From: an uncultured Lachnospiraceae bacterium
Lineage (GTDB): Bacteria; Bacillota; Clostridia; Lachnospirales; Lachnospiraceae
Direction of reading: 5' to 3'
Length of the DNA: 64,000 nt
Assembly (NCBI GenBank): GCA_947630855.1
Contig: CANRJF010000003.1
Location: 1 to 64,000, forward strand
Below, piece after piece: positions 17,299-49,885 of this stretch (the first letter of the stretch is position 1; every line of letters begins with the position of its first letter). The notes under the pieces were generated by a model that was not told the origin of the DNA, did not search any database, and saw nothing but the letters and a program-made list of their open reading frames with translations. Both the position numbers and the translations under genes were made by a program.

Positions 17299-17946
17299 AT
17301 GCGGTATACGTGGTTGGATGAATACTTATTAAACAAAGTCGGGGTTACGAAAGACTTGCAGACGGATTGGAACTGGATTCGTTATAAGATTGAAGAGAAG
17401 ATGTTTGCAGCAGTCTGTCTTGGAGAAAATAATGAACCATACTACATAACTTTGAAATTGGAGCCGGCTGAGGGGGATTTTTTCCGTCAGCAATATAAGG
17501 ACATTATTCCAGGATATTATATGAACAAAACACATTGGAATTCCATTCAGCCGGATGGGGAAGTGCCGGATGATGTTTTAAAAGACCTGTTAGATAAATC
17601 CTATCAGCTTGTGCTTGGAGGATTTAGCAAGAAGAAGCAGCAGGAAATTCTGGAAAATTCAATTTTGGCAGAGGAAATAAGCTGCTGCGGTACAGAATGT
17701 ACGAAATGCAGTTTCTATGGTAATCCATGTAAGGGATGCAATGCAAGCCTTGGAAAAGTGTTTCATGCACCCGAAGGAGGGGCATGTGCGATTTACGAAT
17801 GTTCTGTAAATCAAAAGAAGTATAAAACCTGTAAAACATGTGAAAGTCTCCCATGCGAAATCTGGAGAAAGACAAAAGACCCATCTATGTCAGACGAGGA
17901 ATTTGAAAAGAGTATACAGGAGCGGATAGAGCAATTAAGAAAGTGA
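17299..17946 (+). CDS. MmcQ/YjbR-like plus cysteine-rich (DUF3795-like) protein
   Basis: MRYTWLDEYLLNKVGVTKDLQTDWNWIRYKIEEKMFAAVCL; C-terminal CGTECTKCSFYGNPCKGCNAS...CKTCESLPCEIWRKTKDPSMSDEEF. Confidence 0.7.
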   Translation: MRYTWLDEYLLNKVGVTKDLQTDWNWIRYKIEEKMFAAVCLGENNEPYYITLKLEPAEGDFFRQQYKDIIPGYYMNKTHWNSIQPDGEVPDDVLKDLLDKSYQLVLGGFSKKKQQEILENSILAEEISCCGTECTKCSFYGNPCKGCNASLGKVFHAPEGGACAIYECSVNQKKYKTCKTCESLPCEIWRKTKDPSMSDEEFEKSIQERIEQLRK

Positions 17947-18014
17947 CTTCAGATTGATATTTGACGGTAAAGCAGAGTTCAAAACAAAGCATAGGGGATG
18001 AAGGTGACCGATAT

Positions 18015-18776
18015 ATGGAACTTGTAAAATTAACACATGACAATATTGAAACGGAACATATTTGCTGTGCCATTGCAAAGAACAATGATGTGCAGGTTAT
18101 GTCCAAGAAACAGTGGTTACGGGAACGATTAGAGGAAGGATTGGTTTTCTTAAAATGTAATGTCAGGGGGAAATGTTTTATTGAGTACATACCTGCAGAA
18201 TATGCATGGACACCCATTGAAGCAGAGGGATATATGTATATTGACTGCCTGTGGGTATCCGGGCAGTTTAAGGGAAAGGGCTACTCAAACCTGTTGTTAG
18301 AGGAATGTATAAAAGACAGCAGAGAGAAAGAAAAAAAGGGGCTTGTGACGCTGTCTTCCAAAAAGAAAATGGGTTTTTTGTCGGACCAAAAATATTTAAA
18401 GTATAAGGGTTTTGAAACGGCTGATACAGCGAGCCCTTATTTTGAACTTATGTATCTTCCGTTTTCTGAGAACGCAAAGAAACCTTGTTTTAAACCCCAT
18501 TTGAAACAATCAGGACAGAAGAATGCACAACAGGGATTTACCTTGTATTATACAAGCCAATGTCCTTTTACGGCAAAGTATGTTCCAATTCTTTTAAATA
18601 TAGCTGAAAATAAAAATATTAAGTTTCAATCAATTCATATTGTTTCAAAAGAACAGGCACAAAATGCCCCCACACCTTTTACAACGTTTAGTTTGTATTA
18701 TAATGGCAGGTTTTTAACTCATGAGATATTATCAGAGAAAAAATTTCAAAAAATAGTAACCGATATGGGATTGTAA
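18015..18776 (+). CDS. GNAT-like acetyltransferase with YoaP-type C-terminal domain
   Basis: YIDCLWVSGQFKGKGYSNLLLEECI; C-terminal YYTSQCPFTAKYVPILLN thioredoxin-like segment. Confidence 0.75.
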   Translation: MELVKLTHDNIETEHICCAIAKNNDVQVMSKKQWLRERLEEGLVFLKCNVRGKCFIEYIPAEYAWTPIEAEGYMYIDCLWVSGQFKGKGYSNLLLEECIKDSREKEKKGLVTLSSKKKMGFLSDQKYLKYKGFETADTASPYFELMYLPFSENAKKPCFKPHLKQSGQKNAQQGFTLYYTSQCPFTAKYVPILLNIAENKNIKFQSIHIVSKEQAQNAPTPFTTFSLYYNGRFLTHEILSEKKFQKIVTDMGL

Positions 18777-37996: not shown

Positions 37997-38596
37997 ATGA
38001 TTAAGAATATTATTTTTGACATGGGAAATGTCTTATTGGATTATAATCCCAACGTGATATTGGACAAGGTGTGCGGCAGTGAAGAGGAAAAAAGGATAAT
38101 CAAAAAAGAATTATTTGAAGGCCCGGAGTGGCTCATGGGGGACAGGGGAGAAATCACGAATGCAGAACGGTATGAGCTGGTAAAAAAACGTGTCCCGGAA
38201 AAATTACATGAAAAATTAAAGATGTGCGTGGAGCAATGGGACATTTGCATGGTGAAGGTAGAAGGAGCAGAGGAATTTATTCGGTATGTAAAGGAAAAAG
38301 GATATGGGTTGTATATTTTGTCCAATGCCTCCGTAGAGTTTTATCAGTATTTCCCCAGGCAGTTTGAACAGGATTTTTTTGATGGAATTGTGGTTTCAGC
38401 CAGAGCCAAATTATTAAAACCTGATTTAAAAATATACAAATATCTTTTAGAAACCTATGCTTTAGAAGCAGAGGAATGTTTTTTCCTGGATGACAGAGAA
38501 GAAAATGTAGTAGGGGCAAAAAAGGCAGGAATGAAGGGATATTTGTTCCAAAATGATTTTGATAAAATTAAAAGCAAATTAGATAATTTAAAATGA
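37997..38596 (+). CDS. HAD family hydrolase
   Basis: IKNIIFDMGNVLLDYNP, YILSNAS, CFFLDDREENVVGAKKAGMKGYLF. Confidence 0.9.
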   Translation: MIKNIIFDMGNVLLDYNPNVILDKVCGSEEEKRIIKKELFEGPEWLMGDRGEITNAERYELVKKRVPEKLHEKLKMCVEQWDICMVKVEGAEEFIRYVKEKGYGLYILSNASVEFYQYFPRQFEQDFFDGIVVSARAKLLKPDLKIYKYLLETYALEAEECFFLDDREENVVGAKKAGMKGYLFQNDFDKIKSKLDNLK

Positions 38597-38766
38597 GTCA
38601 GACGTGAATGGAAATATGCACAGTAATGAAAAGATAATGGATTTTATGATGCTGGACAAATGGCCGCGTTTGTTTTATTATAAAGATAGTAACTAAAAAA
38701 TAATGTTGGGAAACCGGCATGTGCAGTCAGTGAAGGCACAGAATGTCTGTGTTATGGAGGGTAAAT

Positions 38767-39069
38767 ATGAAGAGCAGAAGAATATCTTTTGAGACAGATA
38801 TTGAGAAATATGAGATTGGAAAGGGTATGGAGGATGGTTTTGAGTTGTTATCCGAGGTAGTGACAACAGGCTGGATTGTTACGGATTTCCTTGTGAAGAT
38901 TGAACGGGAGGACGGTTCCATTGTATGCCCTTATATTACACACCGCAGGGGAAGGACATTTATCGGTGTGGGAGATTACATTATTCAGGATTCAGACGGA
39001 ACAAAGCATGTTTGTGGGGAACATAAGATTTGGAACCGGTATGAAAAGCCGGAAAATTTTCAGGAATAG
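38767..39069 (+). CDS. Conserved hypothetical protein
   Basis: ORF with RBS ggaggg; MKSRRISFETDIEKYEIGKGMEDGFELLSEVVTTGWI. Confidence 0.6.
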   Translation: MKSRRISFETDIEKYEIGKGMEDGFELLSEVVTTGWIVTDFLVKIEREDGSIVCPYITHRRGRTFIGVGDYIIQDSDGTKHVCGEHKIWNRYEKPENFQE

Positions 39070-39075
39070 ACAACA

Positions 39076-39109
39076 AAGCACTGGATATAAACCATATCCG
39101 GTGCTTTGT
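39076..39109. terminator. Rho-independent terminator
   Basis: AAGCACTGGATATAAACCATATCCGGTGCTTTGTT. Confidence 0.7.
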
Positions 39110-39150
39110 TCTGTTACAGGATTAGCCTGCATAAATGGTTATTTTGAATC

Positions 39151-39336
39151 CTATGAGTCGGGAGATGTATTTTTTTTCTCCTGCTCTTCTTTTTCTAAGG
39201 CTTCCAGTCCAAGCCGTATAAGTTCCACCGTTGCCTGTGAACGTGTTTGATAGCGATATTCATAACGGAAATCTTCTATTTTCTGAAACAGTTCATCATC
39301 CACGGAAACGGTATACCTGGGTCTATTTGTAGACAT
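39151..39336 (-). CDS. Ribbon-helix-helix (CopG-like) protein
   Basis: RPRYTVSVDDELFQKIEDFRYEYRYQTRSQATVELIRLGLEALEKEE. Confidence 0.7.
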   Translation of the reverse strand: MSTNRPRYTVSVDDELFQKIEDFRYEYRYQTRSQATVELIRLGLEALEKEEQEKKNTSPDS

Positions 39337-39520
39337 GCGCATCACCTCATTTGTGATTATACCGAAGTAGGGCAAGGATGTAAAGAAAACAAACGACTTA
39401 AATTAAAGTTCCGAATTAACAAAAACTACCTGTAAAATAAAGTAGTGCAAATTGTATTCTTCACAAAGTGTATTTGCGGATTATTGTTTTTAAATTATAA
39501 TGCAAATATTTATTTTTTTA

Positions 39521-39574
39521 TTGACATTGGTTCACTGAACCATTATAATAAGCAATATGGTGATTCACTGAACC
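39521..39574 (+). promoter_or_regulatory. TTGACA-17-TATAAT promoter carrying operator GGTTCACTGAACC in the spacer and GATTCACTGAACC downstream
   Basis: Exact sequence; operators at 39529-39541 and 39562-39574. Confidence 0.8.
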
Positions 39575-39604
39575 AACAAAAACAATGGGCGAGGAGGAGA
39601 TGCT

Positions 39605-39790
39605 ATGGCTGCGAAACTGAAACGTTACTCAATTTCTGTTCCTATTGTCATGAAAGCAGAACTGGATTCATTGAAGTCCAACCGTTACGAAAAGATGACA
39701 GTGAACGGAATGCTCTGTGATTTAATCCTTCGGGGATTAGATTCCGTGGAGCGGCAGAATGAGAGCAATAAATGCGAAGTAGGTATGTAG
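39605..39790 (+). CDS. RHH-like small DNA-binding protein
   Basis: MAAKLKRYSISVPIVMKAELDSLKSNRYEKMTVNGMLCDLILRGLDSVE; paralog at 47679; RBS gaggagg. Confidence 0.65.
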   Translation: MAAKLKRYSISVPIVMKAELDSLKSNRYEKMTVNGMLCDLILRGLDSVERQNESNKCEVGM

Positions 39791-39852
39791 GGCTGTATGC
39801 CATAAGATAGCCAGGGTACTCTAAATCCCAGGATAACAGGAGGAAAACGAGT

Positions 39853-40692
39853 ATGACAGAACTCAAAATGAAATTGAAACCAGGTCTTGTAAAACGTGGA
39901 CTGGCAGTTGCTCTTGCAATCGTGCTGGGCGTCAGCATGATTCCTGACACATTTGCGTCGGCGTCAGGGAAAAATGTTGAAGCAAGTACGCGCGGAGAGT
40001 CTAACACAGACCCAAGTGGAAAAACTGACCCAAACCCAAGTGGAAAAACTGACCCAAACCCAAGTGGAAAAACTGACCCAAACCCGACGAACAATGATGA
40101 CAACAACACAAACACAAATACGTCAGATACGAACAAACCGGGAACTACCCAGACAACAACAACTGAGACTCCTAAGAATGTGGCAGTTACCGGCGTGGTT
40201 GTAACCTATGATGGTGCAAATGTAAAAGGTACAGTTACTATTAAGAAGGGAACAAAGTACAAGTTTAAGGCAGAAATTACCCCGGACAATGCAACGGATA
40301 AGACAGTAACATGGTCTACATCCAATGATAAGATTGCAACCGTTACAGCCGATGGCGTTGTAAAGGGCAAAAAAGCCGGAAAAGCTACCATAACTGCAAA
40401 AGCAGGAGATAAAACAGCCAGCTTTAAGGTTAAAGTCCAGACAAAGAAAGTAACCCTTAAAAATGTAAAGATGAGCAAGAAAAAGATTAAGTTAAAGAAA
40501 GGGGAAACTGCAGAACTTACGGCAACTAAAAATCCGGTGACAGCTTCAGGAAAGATTAAATGGAGTACTTCCAATAAGAAAGTAGTTACCGTAAAGAATG
40601 GTAAACTTAAGGCAAAAAAACCCGGAAAAGCTACCATTACAGCAAAAGTAGGCAATAAAAAAGCTACATGTAAAGTTACAGTAAAGAAATAA
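39853..40692 (+). CDS. Secreted protein with two Ig-like (Big_2) domains
   Basis: Signal peptide LAVALAIVLGVSMIPDTFASA, Pro/Ser/Thr linker, VTWSTSNDKIATVTADGVVKGKKAGKATITAKAGDKTASFKVKV x2. Confidence 0.88.
   Translation: MTELKMKLKPGLVKRGLAVALAIVLGVSMIPDTFASASGKNVEASTRGESNTDPSGKTDPNPSGKTDPNPSGKTDPNPTNNDDNNTNTNTSDTNKPGTTQTTTTETPKNVAVTGVVVTYDGANVKGTVTIKKGTKYKFKAEITPDNATDKTVTWSTSNDKIATVTADGVVKGKKAGKATITAKAGDKTASFKVKVQTKKVTLKNVKMSKKKIKLKKGETAELTATKNPVTASGKIKWSTSNKKVVTVKNGKLKAKKPGKATITAKVGNKKATCKVTVKK
40009..40087 (+). repeat. 24-bp tandem repeat (CCCAAGTGGAAAAACTGACCCAAA) ~3 copies within CDS
   Basis: Encodes repeated PNPSGKTD linker. Confidence 0.9.
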
Positions 40693-40775
40693 TGTGTGAA
40701 AATTGTCAGGCTGCCTGTATGTTTGGCAGCCTGGCCAATAAAAATACATATCAGGTATGCATAATTAGAAAAAGC

Positions 40776-42317
40776 ATGAAAAGAGAAATTGGTTTTAATG
40801 ATTCACCCGTGGATTTAATGGCATATGGCGCCGCATATATTTATCTGGTGCTGATGCTCCTTGTTTTTCCATTATATCATTATGACGGTTTTAACGGATT
40901 AAACGAAAAGAAAATTGTTTTTTTTATCGCAGTGACAGGAATATTCGGAATAATATGCCTGTTCCCTTTCATCAGGAATTTATACTTTTGTCATCATGAA
41001 ATATTGAAGAAAAAATGGCTGTCCGCAGATATAGCTGCTTTATGTTTTTTGGGAAGCATTTGTTTATCAGGAGTTGTTTCCATGGACAGGCAGGAAATGT
41101 TTTCTCCGACAGTAGGGAAGCGTATAGGTTTTTTTGTGATGTTTTTATGTATCATTGCATATTTTTGCGTACAAAGTTATGCGAAATGGGATGCCATATT
41201 GTTCTGGTGTTATCTGTTGGGAAGCGGGGGTATATATCTTTGGGGAATTTTATTAAACTGTAAAGTAAATTTATTCCATATACGGGAAACGTTCTATTTG
41301 AAAGAAGAAATGGCGATTTATGTCAGCCCCATTGGAAATATTAATTATAATGCCGCTTTTCTTGCATTGGCATTGCCGGCAGCAATGGCGATGTATTTGA
41401 TATGTAAAGAGCAGTTTACAAAAAATGTTTTAACCATATACCTTTTCCTTGGATTTTTGGATATGGTTCTTTTGCGCTCGGACAGTATTTATCCTGCAAT
41501 GGCGGCGGTATTTTGTGTATTATTTTACTTTGCCCTGGGAGGTAAGGAATATTTTAGGCGTTTCTGCCAGATGACCTGTTTATTGTTTTTTGCAGGAATA
41601 GCCACATTTCTTTTATATAGATGGATTCCGGGCAGAATGTATACAATGGAAGGAATTGGATGTTTATTTTTAGAACCATCTATATTAAGCATTGAAGTTA
41701 TTATAATACTTATTTGCTGCCTGGCGGGAAGAAATTATTCCCCAAAAAAAGAAATATGCCATACATTACAGAAAATATGGTTGTTATTGGTTATTGCGGC
41801 AGTTATATTGTTTGTTATATTTTTACTATGTATCAATATGTTTTTTCAGGAAAAGACCGTAGGGGCTTTCTGGGAGCCATTTGTTTTAACAGATACTTTC
41901 GGACATGGAAGAGGTTATATCTGGCGGCGCATTCCAAAAGTTTATATGGATTTTCCATGGAAAAATAAGCTGTTTGGGTGTGGTTTGAATTGTTTTAATA
42001 TGGCGGTGGCACCGTATTACAGGGAAGAGATGTTAAGTATTGACGGCACTGTTTTTTATGGAGCCCATAATGAATTCCTTAATCTCTTAATGGAGACAGG
42101 GATTGTGGGAACAGTAAGTTATTTTGGCATAATATTTGGGACATTTGCCCATGCCGTAAAAGGCCTGGCTAAAAATCCTATGAATATTGCTGTTATAGCT
42201 ACCATCTGTTCTTATCTGATTCAGGGGCTTGTAAATGATATTACGATTTTTACACTTTCATTGTTTTTTATTTTTTTAGGATGTGTCAACTCACCACACA
42301 GTGTTTTAGAAGAATAA
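40776..42317 (+). CDS. O-antigen ligase/polymerase (Wzy/WaaL-like) membrane protein
   Basis: ~12 TM segments; WRRIPKVYMDFPWKNKLFGCGLNCFNMAV...AHNEFLNLLMETGIVGTVSYFGIIFG typical O-antigen ligase loop. Confidence 0.8.
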   Translation: MKREIGFNDSPVDLMAYGAAYIYLVLMLLVFPLYHYDGFNGLNEKKIVFFIAVTGIFGIICLFPFIRNLYFCHHEILKKKWLSADIAALCFLGSICLSGVVSMDRQEMFSPTVGKRIGFFVMFLCIIAYFCVQSYAKWDAILFWCYLLGSGGIYLWGILLNCKVNLFHIRETFYLKEEMAIYVSPIGNINYNAAFLALALPAAMAMYLICKEQFTKNVLTIYLFLGFLDMVLLRSDSIYPAMAAVFCVLFYFALGGKEYFRRFCQMTCLLFFAGIATFLLYRWIPGRMYTMEGIGCLFLEPSILSIEVIIILICCLAGRNYSPKKEICHTLQKIWLLLVIAAVILFVIFLLCINMFFQEKTVGAFWEPFVLTDTFGHGRGYIWRRIPKVYMDFPWKNKLFGCGLNCFNMAVAPYYREEMLSIDGTVFYGAHNEFLNLLMETGIVGTVSYFGIIFGTFAHAVKGLAKNPMNIAVIATICSYLIQGLVNDITIFTLSLFFIFLGCVNSPHSVLEE

Positions 42318-42384
42318 ATATGATAAATAATCCTATGATTTGAAAATAAATTAGCCAGACAGAAGAAATTGTTTTTCTCATTGG

Positions 42385-42408
42385 GCCGGTGATTGTCACC
42401 GGCTTTTC
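42385..42408 (+). terminator. Rho-independent terminator (duplicated at 43434-43456)
   Basis: GCCGGTGATTGTCACCGGCTTTT. Confidence 0.85.
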
Positions 42409-42489
42409 CCATGTCGTAAAACCGGAACAATATATAAATATGAGATGATCAGAGCAATTGATAGATGGAAAAGAATGTTGTAATGTGTC

Positions 42490-42518
42490 AGAAATTGTGG
42501 TATATTTCCACTATGGGA
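42490..42518 (+). promoter_or_regulatory. Promoter of small toxin mRNA, locus 2
   Basis: TTGTAA-17-TATATT upstream of the CCATAGAG arm. Confidence 0.5.
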
Positions 42519-42603
42519 AACCATAGAGCAAAAGGCGGCTTTACCCTTCTTTGATGGAGTGATTTCTGAAATCCTCCAAACGAAAAGAAAGGAGGGTGAT
42601 AAG

Positions 42604-42699
42604 ATGAATGTTACATACCCTGATTTATTTCAGTTTTGTATATTTGTTGTTGCTCTTGTGGGATTATGCTATACAATCTTCAAGGGCAAAGGAAAATAG
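42604..42699 (+). CDS. Putative holin-like type I toxin (31 aa, MNVTYPDLFQFCIFVVALVGLCYTIFKGKGK)
   Basis: RBS aaaggaggg; paralog of 4049-4144; conserved flanking architecture. Confidence 0.75.
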   Translation: MNVTYPDLFQFCIFVVALVGLCYTIFKGKGK

Positions 42700-42810
42700 C
42701 CGCTGCTACTCCCAATAGCAACGGCTGACCTCATAAGAGGTTATGTACTGTTTATCGGAGGGTAGAGCCGTTTCTATGGCTTTCCCTTTTGCTATGTTCA
42801 ATATAGCATA
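42699..42810 (-). ncRNA. Putative antisense antitoxin RNA, locus 2
   Basis: Minus-strand TTGCAA-17-TATATT promoter near 42804-42832; bidirectional hairpin AGCCGCTGCTACTCCCAATAGCAACGGCT downstream of toxin stop. Confidence 0.55.
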
Positions 42811-42903
42811 TCTTTTGGAGGTTTGCAAGAAGATTCTTTCTTCAATTATTATTGAATTTTGCTTCAATGCATATTATTATGAATTGAGAAAGGAAGTGAT
42901 AGC

Positions 42904-43179
42904 ATGGCTACGGTAAGCCTTCAATTTGATGATGAAATGAAAAAACGACTTGATGAGATGTGCGATGAAATGGGAATGAACCTTACCACCTTTTTTATGA
43001 TTTATGCAAAAAAAGCCCTGCGTGATCGGAGAATACCCTTTGAAATAACAGCCTCTATGGATTCTTTTTACTCTGATTCCAATATGGAATATTTGCGTCA
43101 AGCTGACAATCAGGTCCAAAACGGGCAAGTTGTGATAAAAACCATAGAGGAATTGGAGAGGGAAAACCAGAACCACTAA
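42904..43179 (+). CDS. RelB/DinJ family antitoxin, C-terminus altered by deletion
   Basis: ATVSLQFDDEMKKRLDEMCDEMGMNLTTFFMIYAKKALRDRRIPFEITASMDSFYSDSNMEYL. Confidence 0.85.
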   Translation: MATVSLQFDDEMKKRLDEMCDEMGMNLTTFFMIYAKKALRDRRIPFEITASMDSFYSDSNMEYLRQADNQVQNGQVVIKTIEELERENQNH

Positions 43180-43298
43180 AAGGCATTCATAAGGGAAAAT
43201 GGAGCAGGCGAATCAATGATAAAGACAGGCTTGTCTACGAAGTCAATGAAGATGGCATTACTGTAAAACAGTGCAGGGGACATTATGATGACAAGTAA
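43149..43298 (+). pseudogene. C-terminal fragment of a Txe/YoeB-type toxin
   Basis: Out-of-frame overlap with antitoxin 3' end; reads GIGEGKPEPLKGIHKGKWSRRINDKDRLVYEVNEDGITVKQCRGHYDDK without start or N-terminal half. Confidence 0.8.
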
Positions 43299-43360
43299 TA
43301 TTTATGGCAGACGTACAGGTCTATCTTAGATGTGCATCTGCCGTTTTCATGATATCTGGC

Positions 43361-43428
43361 AGCGTATTTCAAAATTCTATATGTTTTTTTCTGGAAAAAT
43401 AGGTTGTTTGGATATGGTTTGAATTTTC
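43361..43428 (+). pseudogene. Fragment of a second O-antigen-ligase-like gene
   Basis: Translates, with one frameshift, to DIWQRISKFYMFF/WKNRLFGYGLNF, matching YIWRRIPKVYMDFPWKNKLFGCGLNCF of the intact gene. Confidence 0.75.
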
Positions 43429-43433
43429 ATTGG

Positions 43434-43456
43434 GCCGGTGATTGTCACCGGCTTTT
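43434..43456 (+). terminator. Duplicate of terminator at 42385
   Basis: GCCGGTGATTGTCACCGGCTTTT identical core, flanks also conserved. Confidence 0.85.
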
Positions 43457-43490
43457 ACCATGTCGTAAAATCGGAAACATGTATTTTGTG

Positions 43491-43520
43491 TTGATTGTGG
43501 TTCACTGAACCAACTATAAT
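43491..43520 (+). promoter_or_regulatory. Second GGTTCACTGAACC-containing promoter
   Basis: TTGATT-18-TATAAT with GGTTCACTGAACC at 43499-43511. Confidence 0.75.
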
Positions 43521-43603
43521 AAATTATATATCTTTAAAAAAGATAATATTTATCACAAAGAGAAGGGCGAAAAAAGCATGAAGTATTAAAAAACGTGCCT
43601 GGA

Positions 43604-43630
43604 AGGGCAGGCTTGTGCCCTGCTTTTTTA
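43604..43630 (+). terminator. Intrinsic terminator
   Basis: AGGGCAGGCTTGTGCCCTGCTTTTTT. Confidence 0.7.
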
Positions 43631-43930
43631 ATGGAAATAAAAAATTTTCCATTTACTGCAACCTTTTTTCAAAAACCGCACTCTATATAAACAGAACCCT
43701 AAATATAAAGGAGACGGGGGAAGGGAGGCGATACGAAATGGAGCAGATGGAAAATTTAGATGTAGAGATAAAAGAGGAATTAGAAGATATCTAAAATGTG
43801 CTGCAAATGCAGGAATTATTCCTGGAAAGGAATGAGGAGAAAGAGTCAGTAAGAAGAAGCATAAAGATTGTCCGCAAAATGATACATAAATTATTAGTGT
43901 ATGTATTTGGTAATTACAAACAACTAATTG

Positions 43931-43959
43931 TTGAAAAAAAGTTCCTGTGGATGTATAAT
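43931..43959 (+). promoter_or_regulatory. Promoter of the large surface protein gene
   Basis: TTGAAA-17-TATAAT. Confidence 0.65.
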
Positions 43960-44005
43960 AGCTATACTACTAGCAGTAGCAAAAAAATACTAAGAGGTGA
44001 TGGTT

Positions 44006-47000
44006 ATGAAAAAGGGAAAAGGATTTTTATTATTAGCAATGCTGCTTTTTATTATGTCGTGTATGCTTCTGCCGGAAACGACAGCGGCAGAGCAGGTTAG
44101 ACCGGAGGCAGAAAAAGCAGAAGAAACAAAAGAAGAATCAGACGGGCAGTCGCAGCAGACGGCGGGAGAAACCGAAGAAGAACAGACGGACTTAATAACA
44201 GTGGAGGCAGAAATCCAGGGTGCATACCAGTTTGGTGATATGCCTTCTTCGGCAGAGAACGAGATTGCCTTTTTTTCTATGGATCAGCCGGATGAAGAAA
44301 AAGAAGAGGCAGCAAAGGAGTTTATTTATCGGTCGTTGATGAAGGGGGAGAAAGGTGTTGATATTTCCGATTATGACATACCGGTCAGCAGGTTAAATGG
44401 CATGCTTGCCAGCCTTTTAAATGAGCATGCGGATCTTTATTTTGTTAGTCAAAGATATTCATATAGTTGTGTTGATATCGACAGTAGTGTAGACAGTAGT
44501 GTATATATACTGATATTTACTTTCGTGGAGACTGATGGTGAGGCGTTTTACAAGGAAACCAGGGCAGCTCTTTCGGTTGTGAAAGAAGGCATGAGCGATT
44601 TGCAGAAAGTAATAGCGCTGCATGACTATCTGGCGATAAATTGTGAATATGATAAGGAAAATTATGATAATCATACTATTCCGGACGAGTCTTATTCGGC
44701 ATATGGCGTGCTGGTCAATCATACAGGCGTGTGCAATGGATACGCGCTAGCATACGGTTATTTGCTGGAACAGGTGGGGATTAGAAGCTTTAAGGTCAGA
44801 AGCGCTGCAATGAATCATGCCTGGAATCTGGTTGAACTGGACGGTTCCTATTATCATGTGGATGTGACATGGGATGATCCCACATGGGATCTTGTTGGCA
44901 GGGCCAGACATCAATATATGCTAAAAAGTGATAATGCCCTTGCTGGCCATTACGATTGGGAAGTTTCGGGTGAGGGTTATTCTGCTGCCAATACAAAATA
45001 TGACAATGTGTTTTGGAATGATGTAGATTCCCCCTTGGTATTGGACGGAGAGCAGTGGAACGATTGTTATTATATTATATTTGACAGTAGGAGCAAAACT
45101 GGAAAAATAAAAAAGACCTCTTTATCAACTCTGTCGGATGCAGGAACTGAGATTGCCGATATCGGCAGGTGGGAAAACAAAAATTGGTATTGGGGGAAGG
45201 CTTATTCCGGGCTTTCCCTGTATCAGAATCGTTTGTATTATAATGATACTTCTTCTATATGCAGTATCGCAAAAGACGGGACGGATAAACGAGTGGAATT
45301 TGAGGCGGATACCACCAGCGGCTATATATATGGAAGTGCCTTTTGCCAGGGGAAAGTGTGCTATTCTCTGCATACGACGCCGAATTTCACAGGAAAGGAA
45401 ACGGTTTTAACGGCGGATATTGCCATTAAAGAGGAAGAGCCAACTGAGTTTCCGGTTAAAAAGGTTCTCTTAAGTGAGGATGAACTGGTGCTGTTAGAAG
45501 GAGAAACGGCAGTGTTGCAGGCTTCTCTTGCTCCGGCTTATACAACAGTAACAGATTCCGATATTTCATGGGAAAGCAGCAACCCTTCTGTTGCCACAGT
45601 ACAAAATGGCACAGTAACTGCTGTTTCGGCAGGGCAGTGTACGATTACGGCAACAGCAGGAGGGAAGCAGGGAACTTGTGAACTTAAAGTCTATGCTGGT
45701 CATCATCAGGGTGATATTGCGTCAGGCCGTGATGGAAGAATTGTCTGGAGAATTGATGCAAACGGAACGCTGATACTGGAAGGAACGGGAGATTTCCAGG
45801 AAAAAAGAACTGAAAGGCCTTGGAGTTGGGATTATAAGGAAAAAATCAAAGCTGCCAAAATCAATGTATCAAAGATAACAGATGTTTCTTATTTATTATA
45901 TGGATGTTCAAATTTGGAGAGTATTGAAATTAGCGGATTCGATACAAGCAGAGTAACAGATATGTCGTTTATGTTTACCGGGTGCAGCAGCCTGTCAGAT
46001 TTGGATTTGAGCGGTCTTGATACTGTCAATGTAACAAATATGTCGAGTATGTTTAGTGGATGTAGCAGCTTGACGAATTTGGATGTCAGTGGATTTGACA
46101 CAAGCAGAGTAACAGATATGTCGTTTATGTTTAGTGGATGTAGCAGTTTGACAAACTTGGATCTTAGTAGTTTTGATACAAGCAGCTTGGTGTATACGTA
46201 TAATATGTTTTATTTTTCTTTTAATTTGAAGAATTTGGATCTTAGCAGATTTGATACAAGCAACGTAATAGATATGGAGTATATGTCACGTATGCTTGTT
46301 GGTTGTTTAGATCTTGAGGAAGTTAGGTTTCCAGCCAATCTTGCGAAGGCTATTGCTCTCCCGCAACAGGAAGGCAATCATTGGGAGGATGAAAATGGGG
46401 AAATCAGAAGCGAAGCTGTAAAGGGATTACCGTCTGCAATGACATATTACAGCGTAGCAGATGGGGAGCAAAATCCGTCAGGCGGTGGTAATGAAGGACA
46501 AAATCCGTCAGGTGATGGTAATGAAGGACAAGCACCGTCAGAAGGCAGCGAAACGCCCAACCCATCGGGGGGTGGAGAAGGACAAAGCCCATCTGAAGGG
46601 AACGGGGAACAGGATTCTTCTAATCCGAATCAGGGCAACACTGATCAAAAACCAGATACGTCCACTACGCCAACTGAAACGTCAGGAAGTGATTCTGTGA
46701 CAAGCGTGAATTTGAATAAAACAAGCGTAACACTTCTGAGAGGAAAAACAATTTTATTGACAGCAGCCGTTGAACCGAACAATGCAATAGACAAAACTGT
46801 GAAATGGTCAACTTCTGATAATAAGGTTGCAACCGTTACAAATAATGGCAACGTCGAAGCAATTGGTATGGGGGAAGCGACTATCACTGCGCAGGCAGGC
46901 GGCAAGACAGCAACATGCAAGGTGACAGTACCTGAAGTAAAGCTGACAGCCACATCTGCTCCATTGCAAGTGAAAAGTTCTACAACAGCAATTAAAGTTG

Positions 47001-47422
47001 ACGAGAAGTATCCTTTCAACGATAAAGTGAAATCCTGGGAATCTTCCAACAAAAAGGTGGCTGCGGTTAATAAAAACGGTAAGATTACTGCGAAGAAAAA
47101 AGGAACAGCTAAAATTACAGTTACTATGGAGAGTGGCGCTACGGCAACATGTAAGATTACAGTCCAGACCAAGAAAGTAACCACTAAGAAGCTTAAGATG
47201 AGCCAGAAGAAGATTATTTTAAATAAAGGCAAGAGCCAGAAACTTGAAGTAACCAGAAATCCAATCACTGCAACAGAGAAGATTACCTGGAGCAGCAGTA
47301 AGCAGTCAGTAGTTACCGTTAACAAAAACGGCAAAGTAAAAGCAAAGAAAAAAGGAACGGCTACAATCACTGCCAAGACATCAAATGGCAAAAAGGCTAC
47401 CTGTAAGATTACTGTAAAATAG
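44006..47422 (+). CDS. Large secreted protein: transglutaminase-like domain, Big_2, BspA/DUF285 repeats, linker and C-terminal Big_2 repeats
   Basis: Signal peptide; HTGVCNGYALAYGYLLEQVGI...NHAWNLVELDGSYYHVDVTWDDPT; NVTNMSSMFSGCSSLTNLDVSGFDTSRVTDMSFMF repeats; ATVTNNGNVEAIGMGEATITAQAGGKTATCKVTV. Confidence 0.9.
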   Translation: MKKGKGFLLLAMLLFIMSCMLLPETTAAEQVRPEAEKAEETKEESDGQSQQTAGETEEEQTDLITVEAEIQGAYQFGDMPSSAENEIAFFSMDQPDEEKEEAAKEFIYRSLMKGEKGVDISDYDIPVSRLNGMLASLLNEHADLYFVSQRYSYSCVDIDSSVDSSVYILIFTFVETDGEAFYKETRAALSVVKEGMSDLQKVIALHDYLAINCEYDKENYDNHTIPDESYSAYGVLVNHTGVCNGYALAYGYLLEQVGIRSFKVRSAAMNHAWNLVELDGSYYHVDVTWDDPTWDLVGRARHQYMLKSDNALAGHYDWEVSGEGYSAANTKYDNVFWNDVDSPLVLDGEQWNDCYYIIFDSRSKTGKIKKTSLSTLSDAGTEIADIGRWENKNWYWGKAYSGLSLYQNRLYYNDTSSICSIAKDGTDKRVEFEADTTSGYIYGSAFCQGKVCYSLHTTPNFTGKETVLTADIAIKEEEPTEFPVKKVLLSEDELVLLEGETAVLQASLAPAYTTVTDSDISWESSNPSVATVQNGTVTAVSAGQCTITATAGGKQGTCELKVYAGHHQGDIASGRDGRIVWRIDANGTLILEGTGDFQEKRTERPWSWDYKEKIKAAKINVSKITDVSYLLYGCSNLESIEISGFDTSRVTDMSFMFTGCSSLSDLDLSGLDTVNVTNMSSMFSGCSSLTNLDVSGFDTSRVTDMSFMFSGCSSLTNLDLSSFDTSSLVYTYNMFYFSFNLKNLDLSRFDTSNVIDMEYMSRMLVGCLDLEEVRFPANLAKAIALPQQEGNHWEDENGEIRSEAVKGLPSAMTYYSVADGEQNPSGGGNEGQNPSGDGNEGQAPSEGSETPNPSGGGEGQSPSEGNGEQDSSNPNQGNTDQKPDTSTTPTETSGSDSVTSVNLNKTSVTLLRGKTILLTAAVEPNNAIDKTVKWSTSDNKVATVTNNGNVEAIGMGEATITAQAGGKTATCKVTVPEVKLTATSAPLQVKSSTTAIKVDEKYPFNDKVKSWESSNKKVAAVNKNGKITAKKKGTAKITVTMESGATATCKITVQTKKVTTKKLKMSQKKIILNKGKSQKLEVTRNPITATEKITWSSSKQSVVTVNKNGKVKAKKKGTATITAKTSNGKKATCKITVK

Positions 47423-47600
47423 CCGCCACTATTTGATAGCAACTGCTGACTTCATAAGGGGATAAGTTGTATTTTACGGAGGGTAGAGCCGCTTCTGTGG
47501 CTTTGCCCTTTTGTTATGTTCAATATAGCATATCTTTTGAAGGCTTGTAGGAAGATTTTTTCCTCAATTATTATTGCATTTTGATTTCATTCATATTATC
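47420..47600. pseudogene. Relic of a third holin-like type I TA locus (toxin ORF lost, antitoxin side retained)
   Basis: Near-collinear with 42697-42880: TAGCCGCCACTA...CTGCTGACTTCATAAGGGG...GGAGGGTAGAGCCGCTTCTGTGGCTTTGCCCTTTTGTTATGTTCAATATAGCATATCTTTTG. Confidence 0.75.
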
Positions 47601-47678
47601 ATCAATTGAAAAAGGAAGCAGACATGTCATAATTATATGAATAGCGGTTTATGAACTAATTTGAAGGGAGGGAAAAAC

Positions 47679-47858
47679 ATGGCTGCAAGTCTGAAACGCT
47701 ATTCTGTTTACGTGTCTGATGCTATGAAAGAAGAATTGGATACTTTAAAATCAACTCAATATGCAAAAGCAACAGCAAACAGTATGCTCTGCGATTTAAT
47801 TCTTTTGGGTTTAAATTCCGTGGAACACAAGGACAGTGTTAGAGAAGATGGAAAGTGA
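47679..47858 (+). CDS. RHH-like small DNA-binding protein (paralog of 39605-39790)
   Basis: MAASLKRYSVYVSDAMKEELDTLKSTQYAKATANSMLCDLILLGLNSVEH; RBS gggaggg. Confidence 0.65.
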   Translation: MAASLKRYSVYVSDAMKEELDTLKSTQYAKATANSMLCDLILLGLNSVEHKDSVREDGK

Positions 47859-47972
47859 GTTTATAGTGGTGGGCTTGCCACCACTTGTAAAAACAGCGCT
47901 GTCTTTGCTTACTGGCGTGTAGTAATCCTGTGAGCAGAAATTCATCCAGACTAATATGTAGGAGGTAAAAGC

Positions 47973-48950
47973 ATGTTCATTGCAGATTTGCACTGCGACA
48001 CATTGTCGGCATTGTACACAAAGGAGAGACAGGGGGAAGCCGTAAGCCTGATGAAAAATGACCTTCGGCTTGATATCCAAAAAATGAACAAAGGAAAGTA
48101 TCTTTTACAGAATTTTGCAGTATATGTGGACTGGGGGGAGGAAGAAAACCCCTATGCATGCGCCAAAGAACAGATACGTCTGTTTATGGAACAGATGAAG
48201 CAGCATGGCGGCAGCATTGGTCAGGCACGCACATTCCGGGAGATGGAGGAAAACCGAAAAGCAGGACGGATAACGGCTGTGCTTACATTGGAGGAAGGGG
48301 AAATCTGCCAGGGAAGCCTGGAAAAACTAAAAGAACTGTATGATGCAGGGGCACGGATGATGACCCTGACCTGGAATTATGAAAATACTTATGGTTCACC
48401 GGCGGTCTTAGACGAGAGAAAAATATGCGCAAGAGAACACAAAGGATTGACAGAAACAGGTATTGCCTTTCTGGAAAGGATGGAGCAGTTAGGCATGATT
48501 GTAGATGTTTCCCACCTTTCGGACGAAGGTATTGCGGATGTGCTTAAAATTACGAAAAAACCCATTGCAGCCAGCCATTCCAATGCCAGAAGCCTTTGTC
48601 CTCACCCAAGAAATTTAACGGATGGGCAGATTTGCAGTATAGCGGAGCGGGGCGGCATTATCGGTGTCAATTATTATGGAAAATTTCTTGCAGATAAGCA
48701 GGAGAAGGGTGTATATTTCAGCAAAATAGAAGATATTGTAAGGCATATTTCCTACATCGCAGACTTAGGGGGAATAAGCTGCGTGGGGCTTGGCTCTGAT
48801 TTTGACGGCACAAACGATAATCCGGATTTAAAAGATGCATCATATATGGAATATCTTGCCTGTGCATTGAAAAAACAGGGATTTAAAAGCAGTGAAATAG
48901 AAGCAGTCTGCTATAAAAATGTGTGGAATTTTTATAAAGAAATGTTATAA
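47973..48950 (+). CDS. Membrane dipeptidase (peptidase M19 family)
   Basis: FIADLHCDTLSALY, MIVDVSHLSDEGIADVLKITKKPIAASHSNARSLCPHPRNLTDGQI, GLGSDFDGT. Confidence 0.93.
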   Translation: MFIADLHCDTLSALYTKERQGEAVSLMKNDLRLDIQKMNKGKYLLQNFAVYVDWGEEENPYACAKEQIRLFMEQMKQHGGSIGQARTFREMEENRKAGRITAVLTLEEGEICQGSLEKLKELYDAGARMMTLTWNYENTYGSPAVLDERKICAREHKGLTETGIAFLERMEQLGMIVDVSHLSDEGIADVLKITKKPIAASHSNARSLCPHPRNLTDGQICSIAERGGIIGVNYYGKFLADKQEKGVYFSKIEDIVRHISYIADLGGISCVGLGSDFDGTNDNPDLKDASYMEYLACALKKQGFKSSEIEAVCYKNVWNFYKEML

Positions 48951-48994
48951 TCCTGATTTTTTGCATATACATAAAGAAAACGCAAGGAAACCGG

Positions 48995-49885
48995 ATGAGA
49001 ATCGGTATTGTAAATAAGCCGTCGGTTTTTCTTTATGAAAAAGATGGCAAAACTCCCACGGACCAGTTATTTATGGGTTGGGCAGTAGGCATTTTGGGGG
49101 AATTTGGAAAGTATTATCAGATAGTAACCCATTATGGTTATCCTGGGTTCATTAAAAAAGAAAATGTGAAAATCACGGTGGAAGAAAAAATACAGCAAAG
49201 AGACGGCTTGGGAGAAGTATGGATTGTGTCGGCCCCTTTTGCAGATGTGCTTTTGGAACCTAAAGTACAGGGGGAGAGGCTTGTTACACTGGAAAAGGGA
49301 AGTTTTGTAGAATGTTTGGAAATGCCGGAGAGGGAAGAAAAAACAGGCGGCGGGGAACATGGTTTTGTAAAAATCCGTATGGCATCAGGAGCGGCAGGCT
49401 ATGTACCCTGTATTGCACTTACCAGGCGTTTGGATAATGACAGATATCTTTATTCCCACAGACAGCGGAATTATTTTTGTAATCAGGGAAGTTTTTGTGA
49501 GCAGGAATTTCGGGATAAAGCGGCTGCCTATGCCTGGAGTTATCTTGGCACACCCTATCGCTGGGCAGGGAAGAGCGGACAGGGGATAGATTGTTCCGGG
49601 ATGGTTTTTATGTGCTATCTTTTCTGCGGATGTTTAATTTACCGGGATGCAAAAATCCATCCGGGGTATTCCGTAAAAAGCATTTCGTATGATAAGGCAA
49701 AAAAAGGGGATTTGCTGTATTTCCCGGGGCATATCGCAATGTATATCGGGGAAGGCAGGTATATTCATGCTACGGGGAATGCAGACAGTTTTTCCTGTGT
49801 GATAAATAGTCTTCGGGAGGAAGATAATTTGTATCGGGAGGATTTGTCAAAAAGTCTGTATGCCATAGGAAGCATTTTTAAATAA
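48995..49885 (+). CDS. NlpC/P60 endopeptidase with SH3-like N-terminal region
   Basis: YLGTPYRWAGKSGQGIDCSGMVFMCY ... GDLLYFPGHIAMYIGEGRYIHATG. Confidence 0.92.
   Translation: MRIGIVNKPSVFLYEKDGKTPTDQLFMGWAVGILGEFGKYYQIVTHYGYPGFIKKENVKITVEEKIQQRDGLGEVWIVSAPFADVLLEPKVQGERLVTLEKGSFVECLEMPEREEKTGGGEHGFVKIRMASGAAGYVPCIALTRRLDNDRYLYSHRQRNYFCNQGSFCEQEFRDKAAAYAWSYLGTPYRWAGKSGQGIDCSGMVFMCYLFCGCLIYRDAKIHPGYSVKSISYDKAKKGDLLYFPGHIAMYIGEGRYIHATGNADSFSCVINSLREEDNLYREDLSKSLYAIGSIFK

Follow-up and report, generated by a model that had tools for sequence, protein, structure and literature searches.

A candidate autorepressed module of paired ribbon-helix-helix-like proteins, with operators in promoter spacers, beside surface genes of a Lachnospiraceae bacterium

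The window analysed here is a 64,000-nucleotide stretch of DNA from an uncultured Lachnospiraceae bacterium (contig CANRJF010000003.1, positions 1 to 64,000). It holds a group of small genes for proteins resembling ribbon-helix-helix (RHH) regulators, set among promoters and genes for surface proteins:

39154-39336, minus strand: RHH-B, a divergent 61-aa protein (MSTNRPRYTVSVDDELFQK...); a longer ORF spans 39151-39375
39356-39384, minus strand: promoter of RHH-B, TTTACA-17-TATAAT
39521-39549, plus strand: P1, promoter of the RHH-A1, Big_2 and Wzy_C genes, TTGACA-17-TATAAT
39527-39543, plus strand: O1, candidate operator filling the P1 spacer, two inverted 9-bp subsites at an 8-bp pitch
39562-39574, plus strand: O2, second operator pair GATTCACTGAACC, just past the expected transcription start
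39605-39790, plus strand: RHH-A1, 61 aa, proposed autorepressor
39853-40692, plus strand: secreted Big_2 protein, 279 aa
40692-42317, plus strand: Wzy_C/O-antigen ligase-like membrane protein, 541 aa
43491-43520, plus strand: P2 promoter, TTGATT-18-TATAAT
43499-43511, plus strand: O3, the other perfect operator copy, GGTTCACTGAACC, within the spacer of P2
43604-43621, plus strand: terminator-like hairpin (by folding), some 80-100 nt from the start of the P2 transcript
43931-43959, plus strand: operator-free promoter, TTGAAA-17-TATAAT, immediately upstream of the gene for the large surface protein
43997-47422, plus strand: 1141-aa surface protein with transglutaminase, DUF285/PARCEL repeats and Big_2
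47679-47858, plus strand: RHH-A2, a 59-aa paralogue, 56-63% identical to RHH-A1

P1 matches the sigma-70 consensus at 12 of 12 positions, with TTGACA at 39521-39526 and TATAAT at 39544-39549 separated by 17 bp. The consensus promoter with a palindrome in its spacer, from which the original prediction started, is thus real: the core of O1 at 39529-39541 reads GGTTCACTGAACC, within the subsites TTGGTTCAC and CTGAACCAT. The second site claimed 33 bp downstream of this core is also present, at O2. Within the window, operator matches with at most two mismatches number six against 0.95 expected, a count reached by 1 of 100 shuffles. Equivalents of O1 are present in other RHH-A promoters, and most loci have a downstream operator pair, lying 28-38 bp from the spacer pair. 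With spacings spanning this range, the suggested phasing of the two sites by three helical turns is rejected, and phased looping is unsupported. The 13-bp palindrome itself stands in the window, but it is not the operator unit, which is really two subsites at an 8-bp pitch filling the 17-bp spacer.

The gene call of the 61-aa RHH-like ORF at 39605 holds, and its fold assignment falls short of curated cut-offs. RHH-A lies below every curated RHH cut-off in Pfam and NCBIfam, the best score being RHH_3 at 0.0022 for one member, and its best PDB profile match is NikR (E = 0.12); Arc and Mnt are not among the PDB profile matches. The AlphaFold monomer of RHH-A, of medium confidence, has helices at 14-27 and 33-59 after KRYSISV and no strand. 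Foldseek places Arc first for this monomer, followed by several ParD proteins, all of them non-significant. RHH-B, which had been overlooked in the original prediction, matches NikR N-terminal models at 3.5e-6, under their cut-offs. The two proteins align with each other over their full length (1.2e-10), and the predicted DNA-contact strand R-x-T/S-x-S is common to both. A ribbon-helix-helix fold is very likely for RHH-A, short of formal assignment. RHH-B is adjacent and divergent to RHH-A in most other loci.

As had been proposed, the genes after RHH-A1 encode a secreted Ig-like protein (Pfam Big_2, 1.3e-24) and an O-antigen-ligase-like protein (Pfam Wzy_C, 1.7e-12), and all three genes follow P1. 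Further downstream, O3 is a copy of the operator that had been overlooked. The surface protein encoded at 43997-47422 combines PARCEL/DUF285 repeats (TIGR02167, 1e-40), a transglutaminase core and four Big_2 domains. Control of this gene by P2 and O3 is doubtful, because a terminator-like hairpin follows P2 and the operator-free promoter lies nearer. P2 could yield an RNA of about 100 nt that stops at this hairpin (43527-43627, plus strand), perhaps a small RNA under operator control or an attenuator. It has no Rfam match, and no known RNA element was found in 38000-49000.

Several other features lie between and around these genes. At 42904-43300 (plus strand), a RelB/DinJ-like antitoxin gene (NCBIfam, 4.5e-12) precedes a YoeB-like toxin gene of which just the C-terminal half is present; the pair is probably what is left of a decayed toxin-antitoxin system. 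A 31-residue hydrophobic ORF with hairpins after it (42605-42700, plus strand) is like a type I toxin or a holin-like peptide. A hairpin terminator block is duplicated at 42384-42405 and 43427-43455, and a block of about 140 bp occurs both before RelB (42742-42880) and before RHH-A2 (47455-47620); these two duplicated blocks indicate local segmental duplication.

A scan of the whole 3.93-Mb genome finds exactly two perfect GGTTCANTGAACC sites (control 0), both inside the window and both in promoter spacers, at 39529 (P1) and 43499 (P2), besides the near-copy at 39562. When two mismatches are allowed, the genome holds 67 matches against 41 in the control, so that loose operator matches are mostly chance. 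A general Big_2 regulator is rejected, since the operator is missing from many Big_2 genes in other parts of the genome.

The operator and the proteins also go together in the genus. RHH-A is found in four of 15 genus genomes, and RHH-B in the same four only, where it is 83-87% identical. The operator pattern GRTTCASTGAAYC has 13 sites in the 15 genomes, all of them in the RHH locus of the four RHH-A carriers; the 11 non-carriers have none, and control matches in all 15 are likewise zero. Genus members without the RHH module keep the flanking genes, which gives the module the look of an insertion. In G005, which lacks it, the genes after the 38743 homologue are an unrelated ORF of 177 aa and the dipeptidase. 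At the level of the family, the sole two exact matches to the promoter-operator composite in 397 genomes precede RHH-A genes. Two one-mismatch composite matches (L065 and L068) look like chance, having neither a -10 box nor an RHH gene. The bare palindrome was rejected as a family-wide marker, since 61 of the 397 genomes match it, nearly all of them without an RHH gene. A protein-blind search of 2.9 million viral contigs for the -35 box plus operator pattern gave four matches, and all four lie directly before an RHH-A gene with a divergent RHH-B (one of these contigs had also been found by protein search). The operator strings are absent from the literature searched.

RHH-A also occurs beyond the genus: when GTDB contigs were scanned with six RHH-A sequences, 17 loci turned up, spread over Lachnospiraceae, Oscillospiraceae and other Clostridia. 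Three of these are loci of the genus, and another, G128, was also found independently. Each of the 17 has a TTGACA-17-TATAAT-like promoter with spacer subsites, reading TTGACA-GTGAACCAGTGAACCAC-TATAAT or variants of it; the subsites of one locus (L059) are degenerate. The 17-bp spacer consists of two overlapping 9-bp units, GTGAACCA(C/G), set 8 bp apart. In other Clostridia and in metagenome viruses the spacer subsites read GTGAACCA GTGAACCAC at the same pitch, whether direct or inverted. The palindrome arises in the window genus and in L062, where the left unit is inverted; in L059 it is the right unit that is inverted, and this unit is weak. This is a tandem-subsite arrangement in the style of MetJ or omega, with a regular pitch of 8 bp and a flexible orientation. 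In the direct-repeat clade, the spacer of the RHH-B promoter carries one subsite, CTGGTTCACTG.

Distant RHH-A homologues were obtained by searching 391 genomes of the class with a profile, and the geometry was tested on six distant RHH-A genes including that of Clostridioides phage phiCD27, none of which was used to define the motif. The test region was a fixed 95 bp upstream of the start codons, which avoids choice bias. The subsites of distant homologues are altered, for example GTTCAGAC-GTTCAGAT-GTTCTGAC, ATCACCTA-ATCATCTT or CTTCACCG-GTTCACCA. The repeat signal of the six genes at lag 8 nevertheless reaches z = 12.4 against dinucleotide shuffles, a value attained by 0 of 200 shuffles, and the other lags from 5 to 14 stay at background except lag 11 (z = 4.8). 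Pitch and spacer placement are thus kept while the subsite sequence drifts along with the RHH-A protein. This is the best evidence that RHH-A itself would read the operator, presumably as two dimers per spacer.

The surface genes can be followed in the same way. In three relatives (L006, L007 and L008), RHH-A and Big_2-Wzy_C form separate units, each with its own TTGACA-17-TATAAT promoter, a spacer operator and a second operator downstream. The Big_2 homologues behind these separate operator-bearing promoters are 37-43% identical, and the Wzy_C homologues beside them 31-33%. Separate operator-bearing Big_2-Wzy_C operons in three relatives strongly support the view, on comparative grounds, that control of the surface genes is a conserved feature that goes beyond a mere neighbour effect. 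The proposal that an RHH-linked operator both autoregulates and controls surface genes is therefore backed by co-occurrence in four of 15 genomes and by the operon in three relatives. RHH-A2 at 47679 has no clear operator of its own upstream. L006 has a third operator-bearing promoter (17799-18110, minus strand; TATACA-17-TATAAT), before a secreted-looking ORF of 88 aa that lies immediately upstream of RHH-A. Elsewhere, genes adjoining RHH-A include those for a 2193-aa Cna_B adhesin and for camelysin-like proteins, as well as for a kinase or a VWA protein, and from their position RHH-A might control these as well.

The locus is probably an autorepressed module of paired small RHH proteins with a layout like that of phage P22 immI, in which RHH-A would block its own promoter and the surface genes. 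The placement, conservation, pitch and co-occurrence of the operator are read directly from the sequence. One RHH-A dimer would occupy each 8-bp-pitch subsite, and with two subsites filling the P1 spacer and two more just past the transcription start, the bound dimers would block RNA polymerase. RHH-A would in this way keep its own level low and repress genes that are co-transcribed or similarly marked. The cargo under such control would be an antirepressor in phiCD27, and in the window genus Big_2 with a Wzy_C-type polysaccharide polymerase/ligase, placed either in the same operon (window) or behind a second operator-bearing promoter (the three relatives).

We infer that RHH-A, not RHH-B, is the main binder and that the effect of binding is repression. 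The roles could be reversed, with RHH-B as the principal, Mnt-like repressor and RHH-A modulating it, or mixed dimers could sit on the same subsites. RHH-B is the more conserved of the two (mean column identity 71% versus 47% for RHH-A); it is present in exactly those four genus genomes that carry RHH-A, shares the R-x-T-x-S strand and is homologous to RHH-A, and its counterpart gp47 is the one protein annotated as a transcriptional repressor in phiCD27. One locus (L055), however, keeps RHH-A and the operator with no adjacent RHH-B, and in the window genus the spacer of the RHH-B promoter has no subsite, having lost it whereas the RHH-A promoters kept theirs. We consider these alternatives rather unlikely. 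RHH-B may autoregulate elsewhere, to judge from the sequence of L114 (genome G570), where a distant gene of RHH-B type has, besides its own promoter TTTACA-TCATTGGTTCACTCGTG-TATAAT, a larger palindromic region upstream.

There is much less to be said for an operator belonging to an unrelated regulator encoded elsewhere, with the RHH genes as bystanders. Many transcription factors bind short palindromes, and the bare degenerate one turns up in 61 of the 397 genomes of the family, nearly all of them lacking the RHH gene; yet operator and RHH genes co-occur perfectly in the genus, all four unbiased viral matches adjoin an RHH-A gene, and where the subsite letters have changed along with RHH-A the 8-bp pitch is retained, all of which makes this explanation very improbable. 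The idea that RHH-A is the degenerate antitoxin of an autoregulating type II toxin-antitoxin locus, suggested by the autoregulation of the RHH antitoxins RelB and ParD and by the RelB/DinJ gene with its truncated YoeB-like partner at 42904, has hardly any likelihood left, as nothing resembling a toxin gene was recognised downstream of RHH-A in the loci that were read, where the genes are instead those of surface proteins, kinases, VWA proteins or phages.

The proposed RHH-A module also has a link to phages, which was reached through RHH-B. In phiCD27, gp47 is of RHH-B type and annotated as a transcriptional repressor, the divergent gp48 is of RHH-A type (hhalign 1.6e-15), and gp49, an antirepressor, follows. 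The gp48 promoter reads TTGACA-TGGTTCACCAGTTCATC-TATAAT. Three metagenome loci (L046, L060 and L063) lie in prophage-like regions, and clade-type RHH-A had no match in collections of isolated phages and plasmids. Taken more broadly, the module could be a widespread and undescribed clostridial cassette of phage origin, made of a divergent RHH pair and of spacers that consist of two 8-bp subsites, whose letters drift while the geometry stays fixed and the cargo is exchanged, being an antirepressor in a phage and elsewhere a giant adhesin, camelysin-like proteins or Big_2/polysaccharide genes, so that bacteria would gate their surface with a phage switch. We put this forward tentatively, as somewhat short of probable. 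Its parts, a small autorepressor and a spacer operator, are ordinary; the strict geometry, the wide recurrence and the cargo are unusual. If the cargo-swap reading is true, it would be a clear case of a switch of phage lysogeny type reused for host surface control. Links between surface genes and their regulators are rarely known in gut Clostridia, which are mostly uncultured; here the regulator of such genes and its exact operator are both predicted. Repressor/operator pairs with the same geometry and differing sequences should also be useful for understanding how RHH proteins choose DNA.

The original prediction knew of no described system with this operator and gene set, but a precedent exists, since the closest described logic is that of phage P22 immI. 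There, mnt and arc control ant (PMC8022706). The likeness lies in two small RHH proteins, a controlled downstream gene and autorepression, and phiCD27 repeats the order of mnt-arc-ant as RHH-B, RHH-A and antirepressor. Two divergent small RHH-like genes are found in the window, in the relatives and in phiCD27. The Arc operator lies between the -35 and -10 boxes of Pant, with a second operator near the transcription start; here too, the operator lies between the -35 and -10 boxes of the second RHH gene's promoter. The downstream antirepressor is present in phiCD27, whereas the window has Big_2 and Wzy_C. A sequence relation to Arc or Mnt is not detectable, and the subsites are spaced 8 bp apart, against about 11 bp for Arc. 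In omega of pSM19035, one RHH dimer binds each short subsite, and the subsites are contiguous, in direct or inverted order (PMC9499535). The contiguous short subsites of either orientation are shared with this ParB protein, which differs in its 7-bp repeats and its role in plasmid partition and copy control; in the present loci the subsites are 8 bp, of GTGAACCA type, and lie in a promoter spacer. MetJ sets its RHH dimers on tandem met boxes at an 8-bp pitch; it is a larger, SAM-binding protein that regulates methionine genes, and no sequence relation to it was found here. CopG of pLS1, a short RHH autorepressor, has its operator, a pseudosymmetric element of 13 bp, inside its own promoter; it differs from RHH-A in controlling copy number, in its operator sequence and in having no divergent partner.
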